64,000 nucleotides of DNA from Ruminococcaceae bacterium Marseille-P2935 (GTDB lineage Bacteria; Bacillota; Clostridia; Oscillospirales; Ruminococcaceae). Positions within the stretch are counted from its first letter, which is position 1, and the number at the start of each line of letters is the position of its first letter. The notes beneath the pieces are model-generated. The model made no database searches. It was not told where the DNA came from and saw only the letters and a list, made by a program, of their open reading frames with translations. The translations under genes were made by a program, and so were the position numbers. Location: assembly GCA_900104565.1 (NCBI GenBank), contig LT629952.1, forward strand, positions 991,604 to 1,055,603, read 5' to 3'. Positions 15,883 to 40,775 of this stretch are shown in pieces.

Positions 15883-15904
15883 GTTAATGAAATATGAACA
15901 TGTG

Positions 15905-15971
15905 CCAATATAATCTGGGTGATAAGGTCCCTAAGTTTCTACCGAACGACCGTAAATTGTTCGACTATTGG
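15905..15971 (+). ncRNA. Guanine-class purine riboswitch aptamer
   Basis: P1 is CCAATA (15905-15910) with TATTGG (15966-15971). The conserved purine-aptamer core is present: TAATC...GATAAGG, AAGTTTCTACC and GACTATTGG. The specificity base is C (GACTAT rather than GATTAT), which predicts guanine/hypoxanthine rather than adenine. The 3' P1 strand ATTGG can instead pair with CCAAT (16040-16044) in the terminator, giving an antiterminator when purine is absent. It therefore fits an OFF switch for the permease that follows. Confidence 0.95.
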
Positions 15972-16025
15972 AGTACTTGCCCAGTATTTGTGCAGGTATA
16001 TCCTGTTGTTCCTACAAATTCTACG

Positions 16026-26963: not shown

Positions 26964-28991
26964 TTATACTTCTTGAATAATTGGTAAAATCATAGGTTTG
27001 CGTTTTGTGCGGTTATACAGGTAATCGCCTAAACGGTCCTTTACCTGCTGTTTCAGATGATTCCAATCTTTCACACCGCCATTTACGCTGTTTTCTACTG
27101 CCTGACGAATAATGGATCGGGCCTCGCTCATCATTTCTTCCGCCTCGCGCACATAGACAAACCCGCGGGAAACTACATCTGGTCCAGCCAAAATCTGGCC
27201 GGTGACCGAATCGATTGTTACAACGGCAATAATTAAGCCGTCCTCACCCAGATGCTTACGGTCACGCAGTACAATGCTGCCTACATCGCCGACCCCCAAA
27301 CCGTCTACCATTACCTGGCCTGCGGGTACATTGCCCACAATCTGCATGGTGACGCTGTCTGTCTCAATTACATTGCCAATATCGGCTATAATTACATTTT
27401 TACGGTCCATTCCCATAGAAATTGCCAAATCGGCATGTTTACGCAGGTGTTTATACTCGCCATGGGCCGGAACGAAAAACTTAGGCCGGGTAAGTGCCAG
27501 CATCATACGCAGCTCATCCTGGCAGGCGTGACCGGAAACGTGTACATCGTACATTTTTTCGTACAGCACTTCAGCTCCTAGCTTCATCAGCTCGTTTACT
27601 ACCTTGCCCACCAGCTTTTCGTTGCCGGGAATGGGGGTAGCCGAAATAATAATGCAGTCGTTGGGGGTAATCGACACCTTGCGGTGGTCGCCCATAGCCA
27701 TGCGGGTAAGGGCACTCATCGGCTCGCCCTGGCTGCCGGTAGTGATAATGGCAATCTTCTCATCCGGGTAACGGTTGATCATATCAATGTCCACCAGTAC
27801 GCCCTCGGGAATGCGCAGATAACCCATTTCAAGGGCAATGCCAACTACGTTGATCATGCTGCGGCCCGATACGGCAATTTTACGCCCATATTTGATGGAG
27901 GAGTCCACAATCTGCTGGATGCGGTGAATATTACTGGAAAACGTAGCAATAATCAGCCGGCGCTTACTGGCGCGGGCAAACAATTTTTCAAACGATTCTC
28001 CAACAGTGCGCTCGCTGGCTGTGCTGCCGGGACGCTCGGCGCCTGTAGAGTCGGAAAGCAGAGCCAGCACCCCATGGCTGCCCAGCTCACCAAACCGGGC
28101 CAGGTCAATCACGCCGCTCTCGATTGGGGTATAATCAATTTTAAAGTCACCGGTTTGAATCACCACACCGGTGGGGGTGTGAATTGCCATGGCACAGGCG
28201 TCGGGAATAGAATGGTTAACCCGAATAAACTCTACTGACATACAGCCCATCTTAACTGTTTGCCCAGGCTGGACCACCTGCATTTTGACCCTGCCGCTCA
28301 GTCCATGCTCCTTCAGTTTGCAGTCTACCAATCCCAAGGTAAGGCGAGTGCCATAAACCGGAATATTTACGGTTTTCAGCAGGTACGGCAATGCACCAAT
28401 ATGGTCCTCATGGCCATGGGTAATCACAATTCCACGAATTTTATCTTTGTTCCGTTCTACAAAAGTAAAATCAGGAATTACCAGATCGATGCCCAACATA
28501 TCCTCATCGGGGAATGCAAGGCCGCAATCTACAATAAACATGTCTCCCCCACATTCATACAGGGTCATGTTTTTGCCAATTTCGTTTAACCCGCCCAAAG
28601 GAATAATCCTCAGCGGCGTTTTTTTCTGCACATTTGCCGCCGGCTCCTTATTTCCTTTGCGTTTTTTAGCTGCTTGGTTTTGACGCGCTTTATTGTTTTC
28701 CGTCTTTGCCTTGGCGGCACCGTCTGCGCTTTTGGCAACATTTTTGTTTTGGTTAGGCAGGGATAAAATCTCCTGTACAATTGTTTTTTCGGGGGACTTT
28801 TTTGCGCCTGGCCGGCGGCGGGGCGCCTTTGTACCCTTTACTGCGGGCTGCGCTACTGCCGGCTCTGCCGGCTTTAGTGCCGGCCGTCTTTTATTCCCCG
28901 GTGTATTGGATGGCTTGGAAGAAGCGTTACTGGGCTTCTTATCAGCAGGCTCTTTGGCCGCTGTGCCATCTTGTTTTAATTCTGATGCCAC
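26964..28991 (-). CDS. rnj: Ribonuclease J with long basic N-terminal extension
   Basis: 675 residues; GTG start with GGAGG upstream. RNase J is a metallo-beta-lactamase/beta-CASP nuclease with endonuclease and 5'-3' exonuclease activity in mRNA decay and rRNA maturation. The core starts near residue 125 (PLRIIPLGGLNEIGKNM); the zinc motif THGHEDHIG and the beta-CASP region follow. About 120 residues rich in Lys, Ala, Pro and Asn precede it, longer than the usual 555-residue enzyme, and are probably disordered and RNA- or partner-binding. Promoter 29247-29275; leader of about 250 nt. Confidence 0.95.
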   Translation of the reverse strand: MASELKQDGTAAKEPADKKPSNASSKPSNTPGNKRRPALKPAEPAVAQPAVKGTKAPRRRPGAKKSPEKTIVQEILSLPNQNKNVAKSADGAAKAKTENNKARQNQAAKKRKGNKEPAANVQKKTPLRIIPLGGLNEIGKNMTLYECGGDMFIVDCGLAFPDEDMLGIDLVIPDFTFVERNKDKIRGIVITHGHEDHIGALPYLLKTVNIPVYGTRLTLGLVDCKLKEHGLSGRVKMQVVQPGQTVKMGCMSVEFIRVNHSIPDACAMAIHTPTGVVIQTGDFKIDYTPIESGVIDLARFGELGSHGVLALLSDSTGAERPGSTASERTVGESFEKLFARASKRRLIIATFSSNIHRIQQIVDSSIKYGRKIAVSGRSMINVVGIALEMGYLRIPEGVLVDIDMINRYPDEKIAIITTGSQGEPMSALTRMAMGDHRKVSITPNDCIIISATPIPGNEKLVGKVVNELMKLGAEVLYEKMYDVHVSGHACQDELRMMLALTRPKFFVPAHGEYKHLRKHADLAISMGMDRKNVIIADIGNVIETDSVTMQIVGNVPAGQVMVDGLGVGDVGSIVLRDRKHLGEDGLIIAVVTIDSVTGQILAGPDVVSRGFVYVREAEEMMSEARSIIRQAVENSVNGGVKDWNHLKQQVKDRLGDYLYNRTKRKPMILPIIQEV

Positions 28992-37521: not shown

Positions 37522-39087
37522 TTATAAAAAAAGGTATTGCGTTGCAATTTTTTCTAAAAACATTTGGTCATGCTCGACAAAAACCATGGTGGGGCAAGCT
37601 TTTAGTATTACCTCTTCAATTTGACTGCGGGAAAGAACATCTATATAATTTAGCGGCTCATCCCATATAAATAGCTGTGCAGGCTTGCAGAGGCTTGCAG
37701 CCAGAAGTACCTTTTTCTTCTGCCCCCCGCTGTAGTCCTCCATACTTTTTTCAAACTGTACCCGTGAAAAATCCAGCTTTCGCAAAATAGATTTGAACAA
37801 GCTTTCGTCTAGTTTATTGGCTTGGCAAAAGTCTGTCAGACCGCCTTTTAAAAAAGAGGTGTCCTGCGCCAGGTAGGAAATTTCTAATTTTCCCAGAATC
37901 AGGTTTCCATTATACCTAATATTTTCGCCCGCTAACAGCCGCAGCAAAGTTGATTTACCGCATCCATTACGCCCTATTACCGCCAGCCGTTCCCCTTCCT
38001 TAACCGTAAAGCTGACCGGTTCAAACAAAGGTTGGTTTCCTATAAAAGCGCTTAAATTCACCGCCTCAACGACCTTCTTTTTGGTGTATGGCAGCACATG
38101 CATTTTTAGAGGCGGGTTTTCTTCCACATTCTTTAAAAGCCCCAATTTTTCCTCCGCCGCTTTATTCTGGCGTGCTTCAATCGATTTTGCACGCTTCATC
38201 ATTTTAGCTGCTTTATGACCGACAAAGCCTTTATCGGCCGCACCAGTTTTTGATTTTTCTGTTTTGTCCGACCAGTTTTCGGCCCGTTTGGCGGCCTGTC
38301 GCAGGCGGACAATATCTTTTTTCAGCCGCTCATTCTGTTCTATCTCCATTTGGTCCTGTCTGGTTTTATTCACAAGCCAGCTGGAATAGTTGCCCCGCTG
38401 CACCTCGATGTTCCGGCGGTTAATACTTAAAATATGGTCCACCGATTCATCCAAAAATTTTCGGTCGTGTGAAACCAGGATAAACCCCTTTTTCCCGCTT
38501 AAATAGTTTGCCACTACCTGCCTGCCTTGCTGGTCCAGGTGGTTGGTTGGCTCATCAATCAGCAAAAAACGGTTCTTTTTTAAAAAAAGTGCCGCAAGCA
38601 TCAGTTTTACCTGCTCCCCGCCAGAAAGGCTGTTCCAGGACCGTTCCAGAGTATCCGGCGTTACTTTTAACTTTGCACTTTCCACTCGTATCCAGTCTTC
38701 CATTTCGTAGCCATCATGAGCAAGGTATGTTTCTAACACCTCGCCATACTCCCGCAAAGCGTTTTCTCCTTTGCTGTTAAGAGCTTGTTCCATCCGCTGT
38801 TCCCATATGCTGTAGGGTGCAATCATATCTTTAACCGTCTGCAGAGTGTTTTTCTTTTCTGCCGGGGCTTCAAACGGAAAGTATTCAAAAGCAGCCGCAG
38901 CTGTAATGGTCCCGCTATAAGGGTATTTCCCTTGCAGCAGCCTTAAAAAAGTGGTTTTCCCCCGTCCGTTGCGGCCAATCAACCCCAGCCTCCAGTCTGT
39001 ATCAATTTGAAAAGAAACCGATTCAAAAATTGGTTCAAAGCTGCTTTCGTAGGAAAAGGAAAGATTTTGAATATCAATCAGGGACAT
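37522..39087 (-). CDS. ABC-F ATPase, Lsa-like ribosomal protection protein
   Basis: 521 residues from ATG 39087 with AAGGAGG nine bases upstream. Two ATPase domains without membrane segments: Walker A GRNGRGKTTFL and GRNGCGKSTLL, signatures LSGGEQVK and YSGGQKKK, and a charged inter-domain linker (about 235-310). The C-terminal end PTMVFVEHDQMFLEKIAT resembles the Lsa family, which displaces lincosamides, streptogramin A and pleuromutilins from the ribosome. Resistance is inferred, not proven. A consensus promoter, leader ORF and terminator upstream (39154-39363) strongly support antibiotic-inducible control. Confidence 0.9.
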   Translation of the reverse strand: MSLIDIQNLSFSYESSFEPIFESVSFQIDTDWRLGLIGRNGRGKTTFLRLLQGKYPYSGTITAAAAFEYFPFEAPAEKKNTLQTVKDMIAPYSIWEQRMEQALNSKGENALREYGEVLETYLAHDGYEMEDWIRVESAKLKVTPDTLERSWNSLSGGEQVKLMLAALFLKKNRFLLIDEPTNHLDQQGRQVVANYLSGKKGFILVSHDRKFLDESVDHILSINRRNIEVQRGNYSSWLVNKTRQDQMEIEQNERLKKDIVRLRQAAKRAENWSDKTEKSKTGAADKGFVGHKAAKMMKRAKSIEARQNKAAEEKLGLLKNVEENPPLKMHVLPYTKKKVVEAVNLSAFIGNQPLFEPVSFTVKEGERLAVIGRNGCGKSTLLRLLAGENIRYNGNLILGKLEISYLAQDTSFLKGGLTDFCQANKLDESLFKSILRKLDFSRVQFEKSMEDYSGGQKKKVLLAASLCKPAQLFIWDEPLNYIDVLSRSQIEEVILKACPTMVFVEHDQMFLEKIATQYLFL

Positions 39088-39153
39088 CTGGTGCAACCTC
39101 CTTAAGGCGCGGCGCTGTTTATGTCCCCAGGCAATTTATTCCCTGCAAAAGTA

Positions 39154-39190
39154 AACAAAAAACCGCAGGACGGATTTACCCCCCTGCGGT
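39154..39190 (-). terminator. Attenuator terminator of the ABC-F gene
   Basis: Minus strand ACCGCAGG...CCTGCGGTT followed by T6. Its 5' arm is made of the last codons of the leader ORF, so leader translation can control its folding. Confidence 0.9.
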
Positions 39191-39262
39191 ACAAAACCGT
39201 AAGCAGAAAAGCAAAACCTTTTTCTTGCCCGTGGCAACACAAACAAAGCGCCTGATGCGCAT
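39176..39262 (-). CDS. Leader peptide of the ABC-F attenuator (28 residues)
   Basis: ATG 39262 to TAA 39176. The peptide starts MRIRRFVCVATGKKK and ends CTAGG. The first codons sit in a long hairpin (AACACAAA/TTTGTGTT), and codons 12-15 (GCAAGAAAAA) can pair with TTTTTCTTGC upstream of the ORF; the last four codons form the terminator arm. Ribosome stalling early in the ORF would change which helix forms. The Arg-x-Arg start recalls macrolide-arrest leaders containing Arg-Leu-Arg. No strong ribosome site is visible before the ATG. Confidence 0.75.
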   Translation of the reverse strand: MRIRRFVCVATGKKKVLLFCLRFCTAGG

Positions 39263-39334
39263 CTCGTTTTGTGTTCCAAGTTCTAGCAAGAAAAATGCTT
39301 CACGTTTCCAGCTCCTATCTATTGATTTGCCCTA

Positions 39335-39363
39335 ATTATAGGACAGTATTTCTTAATTGTCAA
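39335..39363 (-). promoter_or_regulatory. Consensus SigA promoter for the ABC-F leader RNA
   Basis: Minus strand: TTGACA, 17-bp spacer, TATAAT, a perfect match. It gives a leader of about 240 nt, as expected for a gene kept off by attenuation rather than by weak initiation. Confidence 0.9.
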
Positions 39364-39411
39364 ACGGCCAAAAGTCGTTCCGTTAACTTCACCATGCATA
39401 CGGTTTCTATA

Positions 39412-40347
39412 TTAACGGAACAGACCCTTTTTCTTTAAAATCAGACCCGCAACAGCAGTAATGACAGCTGCCAATGTAATGGGAAACCAGCCGTTATCAA
39501 GCGGCAGATAGCTGACATTCATTCCGTAGTAGCTAAATACAATCGTCGGAATAGCCATACAAATGGTCAAAGAGGTAAGTACCTTCATTACAATGTTCAG
39601 GTTGTTGGAAATAACCGAAGCGAAGGCATCCATTGTACCGGAAAGAATACTGGAATAGATATTACACATTTCAATTGCCTGCTTAATTTCGATCAGTACA
39701 TCCTCCAGCATATCCTGGTCATCTTCGTACAGCTTGATAATACGGCCACGGAGGATTTTTTCCAACGTTATTTCGTTGGATTTTAAAGAAGTTGAAAAAT
39801 AAACAAGGGATTTTTCCAGCCCCAGCAGCTGGATCAGTTCTTTATTCTTCATAGATTTATGCAGCTGCTGCTCAGTCATGGAAGAAATTTTGTCAATTTG
39901 TTTGAGGTACTGCAGGTACCGCATGGCTACCCTTAATAATAACAGCAGCAAAAAACGGGTTTTCAGGTGAGTGGGTACATTCTTAACCAGACCATCCGCC
40001 AATTCGCTGATAACAGGATTAGCCCGCACACTAATAGTAATAATATGTTTATCGGTTAAAATAATACCGATTGGCATAGTGGAATAGATGATGGTTTTTT
40101 CATCTTCCTGTTTTTCTGCAGTTGGAACGTCCACAATTACCAGTGTCTGGCCATTGTCCTCCGTTTCAATATGAGAAGATTCCTCTTCATCCAGCGCTGA
40201 GCGGACAAAATCCAGCTCAATTCCCACCGTACCGGTTAAAAATTCCACCTCTTCTTCGGTAGGGCTTACTGCACAAACCCAGCAGTTATCTTCCAGCTCC
40301 TCCAGCTTTGTCAGCCGGCCATTTATTGTTTTATAAAAATTAATCAT
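39412..40347 (-). CDS. corA: CorA-family magnesium/divalent cation transporter
   Basis: 311 residues. CorA forms a pentameric Mg2+ (or Co2+/Ni2+/Zn2+) channel. A long soluble alpha/beta and helical N-terminal part precedes two C-terminal membrane helices (about 250-272 and 285-305), with the signature YGMN in the loop between (VFSYYGMNVSYLP). ATG has AAAGGGG seven bases upstream; this site can be masked by a hairpin with CCCCT of the preceding leader ORF. The leader 40363-40437 ends 15 bp before the gene. Confidence 0.95.
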   Translation of the reverse strand: MINFYKTINGRLTKLEELEDNCWVCAVSPTEEEVEFLTGTVGIELDFVRSALDEEESSHIETEDNGQTLVIVDVPTAEKQEDEKTIIYSTMPIGIILTDKHIITISVRANPVISELADGLVKNVPTHLKTRFLLLLLLRVAMRYLQYLKQIDKISSMTEQQLHKSMKNKELIQLLGLEKSLVYFSTSLKSNEITLEKILRGRIIKLYEDDQDMLEDVLIEIKQAIEMCNIYSSILSGTMDAFASVISNNLNIVMKVLTSLTICMAIPTIVFSYYGMNVSYLPLDNGWFPITLAAVITAVAGLILKKKGLFR

Positions 40348-40591: not shown

Positions 40592-40775
40592 TATTATACC
40601 ATGAACAGAAGTGTGAATGGTATAATTGGCCATTGCCGTATGGCAGGCCGTAGAAATACGTATAATAAGCGCTTTGCGGTTATTATACCATAAACAGAAG
40701 TGTGAATGGCTATTGGGCGCTTGTCGGCCTGGCCATGAAAGTATAATAACTGCCTAGCAGTTATTATACCATAAA
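40592..40775. repeat. Three-copy interspersed palindromic repeat
   Basis: TATTATACCATRAA recurs at 40592, 40681 and 40762; the first two copies continue identically through ACAGAAGTGTGAATGG. Copies two and three are each preceded by a hairpin whose arms start GTATAATAA (40660-40688 and 40741-40769, the latter with perfect 13-bp arms). Unit spacing is about 81-89 bp. It looks like a small non-coding repeat family. Confidence 0.75.

Follow-up and report, generated by a model that had tools for sequence, protein, structure and literature searches.

Behind the field of drug-responsive leaders upstream of ABC-F resistance genes there reportedly stands a Term-seq study by Dar from 2016. According to the accessible sections of three reports, lincosamide, pleuromutilin and streptogramin A drugs arrest ribosomes close to the start codon of the short upstream open reading frames (uORFs) in such leaders, the published uORFs being MIN (vmlR), MR[I/M] (cplR), MK[L/Q] (vmlR2), MAGN (lsaA) and MLV (are5sc), and the switch logic that we propose below is experimentally supported there for vmlR, cplR and are5sc (PMC9226507, PMC10201436, PMC12421871). 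We compare with these systems the leader of an ABC-F gene in a 64,000-nt stretch of the genome of Ruminococcaceae bacterium Marseille-P2935, referred to here as the window. In vmlR of Bacillus subtilis, as in the window, a short uORF (MIN, three codons) lies in a 5' anti-antiterminator hairpin accompanied by a terminator and an alternative antiterminator, which in the window is a predicted one; initiation on this uORF is essential and lincomycin-type drugs arrest ribosomes near its start codon, whereas its uORF and RNA sequence are different and it carries an extra pause hairpin and a hairpin that sequesters the Shine-Dalgarno sequence (SD), as far as the accessible text of that article describes it (PMC9226507). 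No separate pause hairpin was identified in the window leader, and the potential pairing of GACAU before the ABC-F gene with AUGUC in its start region (39076-39125, minus strand) is equalled by shuffled sequences (z -0.3). The leader of cplR in Clostridioides difficile shares with the window a short uORF (MR[I/M]) in a 5' hairpin, a terminator, a host among the Clostridia and an ABC-F partner, but in the accessible account its terminator also covers the SD of the gene, its uORF consensus is another one and the gene is ARE1 and not Lsa-like (PMC10201436). The same source, available in part, gives lsaA an Lsa-type partner as in the window, but its MAGN is unlike MxxxSC*, compared by published consensus only (PMC10201436). 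The leaders of are5sc and tiaA in Streptomyces have short uORFs too, on which drugs of the lincosamide, streptogramin A and pleuromutilin classes halt ribosomes at the start codon, but differ in RNA, phylum and gene class (ARE5) according to the accessible text (PMC12421871). The "ABC-leaders" of Naville and Gautheret concern, in the available part of their article, transporters and other motifs (PMC2965389). The window leader is apparently of the vmlR/CplR kind, which is already known, and its RNA family is apparently undescribed. Rfam searches of the leader yielded no match at gathering score (best sub-threshold hit E 1.1), and a riboswitch or known RNA family was rejected on these grounds; the string MRNFSC, a uORF peptide of relatives, was not found in the literature searched, which mostly excludes subscription journals.

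Promoter, leader (about 240 nt) and ABC-F gene follow one another on the minus strand of the window. In the order of transcription, the features are:

39358 to 39363, minus strand: -35 box TTGACA (consensus 12/12 together with the -10 box)
39335 to 39340, minus strand: -10 box TATAAT (spacer of 17 nt to the -35 box)
39312 to 39316, minus strand: SD AGGAG of the six-codon uORF, 8 nt before its GTG (anti-SD duplex -10.7 kcal/mol)
39283 to 39303, minus strand: leader uORF GTG AAG CAT TTT TCT TGC TAG (MKHFSC*), the likely drug sensor, from conservation and SD
39286 to 39295, minus strand: arm A (UUUUUCUUGC), the 3' half of the six-codon uORF, from fold and comparison
39233 to 39278, minus strand: apical hairpin of the anti-antiterminator (helix 3), which holds the ATG of the 28-codon ORF
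39176 to 39262, minus strand: 28-codon ORF MRIRRF..., MRIRRFVCVATGKKKVLLFCLRFCTAGG*, judged a chance ORF
39217 to 39230, minus strand: arm B (GGGCAAGAAAAAGG), the partner of arm A, from fold and comparison
39203 to 39216, minus strand: B extension (UUUUGCUUUUCUGC), predicted partner of the 5' arm of the terminator under uORF occupancy
39157 to 39190, minus strand: intrinsic terminator with arms C and D and a U tract, from fold energy and shuffles
37522 to 39087, minus strand: Lsa-like ABC-F ribosomal-protection gene (ATG at 39087, SD AAGGAGG), from family models

We consider it highly probable that this leader is a ribosome-sensing attenuator of the ABC-F resistance gene, with MKHFSC* as the sensor and with drug arrest freeing arm B for read-through. 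In the absence of drug, ribosomes would leave MKHFSC* fast, the SD, start codon and coding bases of the uORF (arm A) would pair with arm B into a long anti-antiterminator hairpin, the terminator would form and transcription would end after some 170 nt. A drug that halts ribosomes at or just after initiation, which is where we infer the arrest to lie, would park one on the uORF, hiding arm A and freeing B; B and its 3' extension could then pair with the terminator, through its 3' side (arm D) in most relatives and its 5' side (arm C) in the window, so that the polymerase would read into the ABC-F gene, whose product would clear the drug site. The drug is most likely of the lincosamide, pleuromutilin or streptogramin A type, a class that we infer from how short the uORFs are and from the Lsa-like nature of the protein. 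In a preliminary description of this DNA, the Lsa-like ABC-F gene had been proposed to be controlled by a ribosome-mediated attenuator on which the ribosome stalls near a start codon, and both proposals are supported by the present analysis.

The encoded ABC-F protein passes the NCBIfam model for ribosomal protection NF000355 (477 bits, cut-off 380), its best family model is Lsa NF000167 (653 bits, below the cut-off of 750) and its best solved relative is Lsa(A) on the ribosome (7nhk, phmmer rank 1); the label "Lsa-like", already given to the gene in the preliminary description, is therefore right. PADLOC rows for the gene were disregarded as generic ATPase matches. The promoter had been called perfect, and TTGACA-17-TATAAT indeed agrees with the consensus at 12/12 positions and is the sole perfect match within 5 kb. 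The leader fold has a z of -4.1 (0/200 shuffles as good), and the nested hairpin exists as previously described, its A:B part alone having a z of -3.1 (1/200 shuffles equally good). Between the uORF and the ABC-F gene, about 26 nt from arm B, stands the intrinsic terminator ACCGCAGGGGGG..CCTGCGGT-TTTTT (-20.9 kcal/mol, z -5.2, 0/200 shuffles), the 5' arm of which consists, as had been reported, of the final four codons of the 28-codon ORF (ACC GCA GGG GGG); a simple terminator scan of the window does not list the 39190-39157 terminator.

Some neighbouring elements of the window are recorded here in their own right. Directly before the leader promoter, and just 3' of a gene at 39412-40347 that we take to be CorA-like, lies an inverted repeat TTCCGTTAA...TTAACGGAA (39375-39420, minus strand), possibly the terminator of that gene, and upstream of the same gene ATTATACCATRAACAGAAGTGTGAATGG occurs in two near-identical copies (40595-40770). 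A purine riboswitch is located at 15886-15987 on the plus strand (Rfam RF00167, 75 bits).

The 28-codon ORF beginning MRIRRF, present at 39262-39176 on the minus strand, had been taken for the leader peptide, with Arg-Ile-Arg close to its start as the site of a macrolide-type arrest. MKHFSC*, which sits just 5' of it and lies with its own SD inside the 5' hairpin in a conserved arrangement, was overlooked at the time. The anti-SD duplex of MKHFSC* amounts to -10.7 kcal/mol, compared with -3.3 kcal/mol for MRIRRF and -12.3 kcal/mol for the ABC-F gene. An SD as strong is found at 61 of the 5927 start codons of the window, ten of these 61 with a stop within 8 codons; given that such ORFs recur, the uORF alone would be unconvincing, and it is the conservation that convinces. 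The ATG of MRIRRF falls in the hairpin's apical loop. Of 44 aligned relatives, 14 have an ATG no more than 9 columns from this start, with unrelated peptides, and ORFs of 20-59 codons begin in the apical part at 46 of 54 sites found by the covariance model described below, so that an ORF like MRIRRF is expected by chance. When a ribosome is modelled on MRIRRF, occupancy of its codons 2-5 is inert, the cost of losing the terminator being 8.6-9.0 kcal/mol against 9.0 kcal/mol in the free RNA; at codon 1 it is 5.2 kcal/mol. Sensing by MRIRRF gains some plausibility from the end of the ORF in the terminator arm and from a fall in this cost to 2.4 or 3.8 kcal/mol with the ribosome at codon 8 or 12, but a ribosome at codons 24-28 abolishes the terminator without any drug, so that ordinary, undisturbed translation of MRIRRF to its end would itself antiterminate. 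Rejected as the leader for its weak SD, its lack of conservation and its inert codons 2-5, MRIRRF is in our estimation a very improbable sensor, and the argument from Arg-Ile-Arg and macrolide-type arrest consequently falls. An unconserved leader ORF beside a conserved terminator, the pattern that the preliminary description had held to speak against attenuation, is what we find for MRIRRF and not for the locus as such, as MKHFSC* is conserved.

Relatives were collected as 80 loci from a scan of genome contigs and as 30 loci kept after a protein search in the window's family, where 113 of 396 genomes matched at E<=1e-100. A rule-based reading of leaders reported 88 of 108 loci; 16 false, doubtful or too weak ones were dropped, and 45 of the resulting 72 leaders constitute alignment A1, and 27 near-duplicates or spares were set aside by hand. 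Most relatives share a common layout 5' of their ABC-F genes, consisting of an SD, a uORF of 1-7 codons, YYTGC, an apical hairpin, GCARR and a terminator. The uORF reads MRNFSC* in Merdimmobilis (L054) and Desulfosporosinus (L032), and MRNFTC* (L095), MYHFSC* (L096), MRISC* (L102), MMITC* (L018), MRQ* (L104) or MRK* elsewhere. The nearest ABC-F relatives are no more than 55-59% identical, no second genome of the window's genus was among the genomes searched, and a DNA search with the leader returned four weak matches of 24-38 nt besides the window in the 396 family genomes and none in plasmids and phages; the kinship of the leader is visible only through gene and profile. An nhmmer profile of A1 minus the window row found the window leader with an E of 5.5e-9, and with 13 family-level rows left out as well the leader was still the top match of the 64 kb, at the exact place (E 4.6e-6). 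The host genome contains one confident copy, the next match having an E of 1.7, its own reverse strand aside. Leaving out was performed by nhmmer; alignment A2, in which the GUAA box is out of register, was not used.

Because of the indels in A1, RNAalifold recovered 5 pairs only, and the 22 pairs of covariance model R2 were set by hand from pairs in single folds; the seed of R2 includes the window, which is also in the R1 seed, and 13 other family rows. At E<=0.01, R2 detected 68 sites in 67 of the 396 family genomes after removal of 6 opposite-strand duplicates. Sixty-three of these sites lie 80-649 nt upstream of an ABC-F match, in sense, and 2 more stand before ABC-F genes that a contig end or a broken frame interrupts (65/68), with L160 and L161 being apparent chance matches to ordinary hairpins. 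From a phylum sample of 398 genomes R2 retrieved, at E<=0.001, 25 genomes with one site each (3 further rows are opposite-strand duplicates); 23 of the 25 sites, the window included, stand before an ABC-F match and 2 before remnants (L167, L169), and at least one of the 25 (G654, apparently the same as L044) is also in the R2 seed. Counted from the genes, a detectable element precedes 63 of the 113 family ABC-F genes, the others having none at the R2 threshold of E<=0.01.

Two further observations arose from these searches. L167 and L169 have intact-looking leaders with truncated ABC-F remnants behind them, i.e., the switch outlives the gene. At L159 (G344:C16), an element at 28651-28775 on the minus strand with the uORF MIYVSC* precedes an apparent 571-aa ABC exporter, with a stub MINLHFIN* between the two.

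Among the relatives the paired RNA arms persist despite peptide change. YYTGC is in frame with the uORF at 47 of the 54 model-found sites, some of which are also in the R2 seed (45 by rule, L136 and L186 by eye), and out of frame or past the stop at 7 (L141, L156, L168, L173, L176, L181 and L187). At in-frame sites the Cys codon is TGC in 44 cases and TGT in 1, and the codon before it is TCT in 38, TCC in 6 and ACC in 1. As read from A1, the bases GUAA-N-UUUCUUGC tend to persist, with the start codon moving by two bases. Arms A and B pair in 48 of the 52 Paenibacillaceae-type loci fetched. In 27 of 48 Paenibacillaceae-type leaders, AUG-stop is the only ATG equipped with an SD (e.g., L030, L039, L040 and L069); it is one of at least two ATGs in 6/48, and 15/48 have a longer uORF. 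The share of A1 cells that are paired is 94% for the A:B helix, a biased count since the A and B arms were picked partly by pairing, 69% for the adjoining GUAA helix and 77% for the apical helix, which played no part in arm selection. The covariation score of 0.241 compares with 0.179 after shuffling (0/500) and exceeds that of every slid version. Comparison of sequences shows the uORF with its SD, the A:B hairpin, the terminator and the ABC-F partner to be shared, and argues for independence from the peptide. A conserved hairpin of this length and stability could also belong to a metabolite riboswitch or a protein-binding leader, but there is no Rfam match, the invariant core is made up of SD, start codon and alternating arms, and the partner is almost always a ribosome-protection gene; we regard sensing of a metabolite or protein in place of the ribosome as very improbable.

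The proposed attenuator further involves arm D, which resembles the uORF arm A, so that B is able to pair with either. Complementarity of B and D within leaders is -16.5 kcal/mol vs. -13.1 kcal/mol when permuted (0/5000), a comparison in which kinship is uncontrolled and a few terminators are mis-picked. This complementarity is common, not universal, among the R2 set, and the window, with weak pairing of -6.1 kcal/mol, ranks 40th of 42 and lacks it; we therefore place the window no closer to the set than as a divergent relative, on account of its sequence and layout. We modelled a ribosome as 34 nt barred from pairing, at the uORF start or at codon 3, on 44 leaders, with L028, L032 and L110 skipped. 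The probability of the terminator, P(terminator), drops by more than 0.3 with the uORF occupied in 22 of the 44 leaders and the remaining 22 exhibit no switch in the model, while control blocks of equal size have this effect in 0/44 (apical loop) and 0/36 (downstream of B). An earlier, cruder run had given 39 falls vs. 1 rise among 92, with the wrong start codon or terminator chosen in some loci.

For the window, P(terminator) is 0.98 in the free RNA and 0.97-0.98 with the uORF occupied, i.e., there is no equilibrium switch. The margin in favour of the terminator does decrease upon occupancy, from 9.0 to 2.5-4.5 kcal/mol (2.5 with the ribosome at the GTG), and from 12.1 to 7.2-3.9 kcal/mol under the other energy scheme, the two schemes yielding unequal absolute margins. 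In the prediction this loss comes about through UUUUGCUUUUCUGC (39216-39203) pairing with the terminator 5' arm, which would be the window's own antiterminator. The main rival to a working leader is decay, whereby uORF and terminator remain, the antiterminator has been lost and the gene is expressed constitutively at a low level, as the lost B:D complementarity and the missing ensemble switch of the window would suggest. However, occupancy of the uORF still trims the margin by 4.5-6.5 kcal/mol and exposes an alternative in which the B extension pairs with arm C, and the uORF, SD, A:B pairing and promoter of the window are intact. Moreover, Desulfosporosinus L032 has good B:D pairing and a similar residual cost with the uORF occupied (2.6 kcal/mol; 0.9 kcal/mol in Merdimmobilis L054). 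We hold decay to be unlikely and read the window leader as a divergent but probably working member of its family.

A variant arrangement was observed in five loci from Sedimentibacter and a Firmicutes MAG (L021, L024, L027, L035 and L079), which have the uORF MIR* and no classical terminator, but a hairpin over the SD adjoining the ABC-F start. Modelled occupancy of the uORF loosens this SD hairpin in L021, L024, L027 and L079, which would fit a switch at the level of translation there; at L035 the scan picked another hairpin.

The element was also encountered on plasmids. R2 matched 5' of lsa(E) in Enterococcus faecalis (plasmid locus L195, NZ_KT448817.1, 1124-1253; E 1.8e-13) and 5' of the plasmid-borne abc-f of Paenibacillus urinalis (E 2.2e-11), and gave no match upstream of lsa(B) and two other plasmid ABC-F genes among the five plasmid loci scanned. 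The lsa(E) leader has the uORF MYNFSC*, and in the model a ribosome on the uORF takes its P(terminator) from 0.99 to 0.00, with a partial return to 0.31 once the ribosome is shifted to the stop codon; the leader keeps the canonical B:D antiterminator, whereas that of the window is degraded. The leader region of lsa(E) occurs in 111 plasmid records, 102 of which cover 80% or more of its length, and a literature search, mostly without subscription journals, found no description of an lsa(E) attenuator.

Taken as a whole, the data incline us, with modest confidence, to the view that Lsa-like ABC-F genes throughout the Bacillota, from gut Clostridia to Paenibacillus, are under the control of one homologous RNA switch, as yet unnamed, which travelled with lsa(E). 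The sensor of this switch would be initiation and not the peptide, the terminator 3' arm would copy the uORF region with B choosing between the two, and the Sedimentibacter variant apparently acts on the SD of the gene. The chromosomal gene of the window is tied in this way to the RNA family of lsa(E), a mobile gene that confers resistance to lincosamides, pleuromutilins and streptogramin A, and a misidentified leader peptide is replaced by a testable sensor. If the AUG-stop leaders work, they would be a natural proof of arrested-initiation sensing without a nascent-peptide code, and would cleanly test the extent to which drug sensing needs leader peptides.
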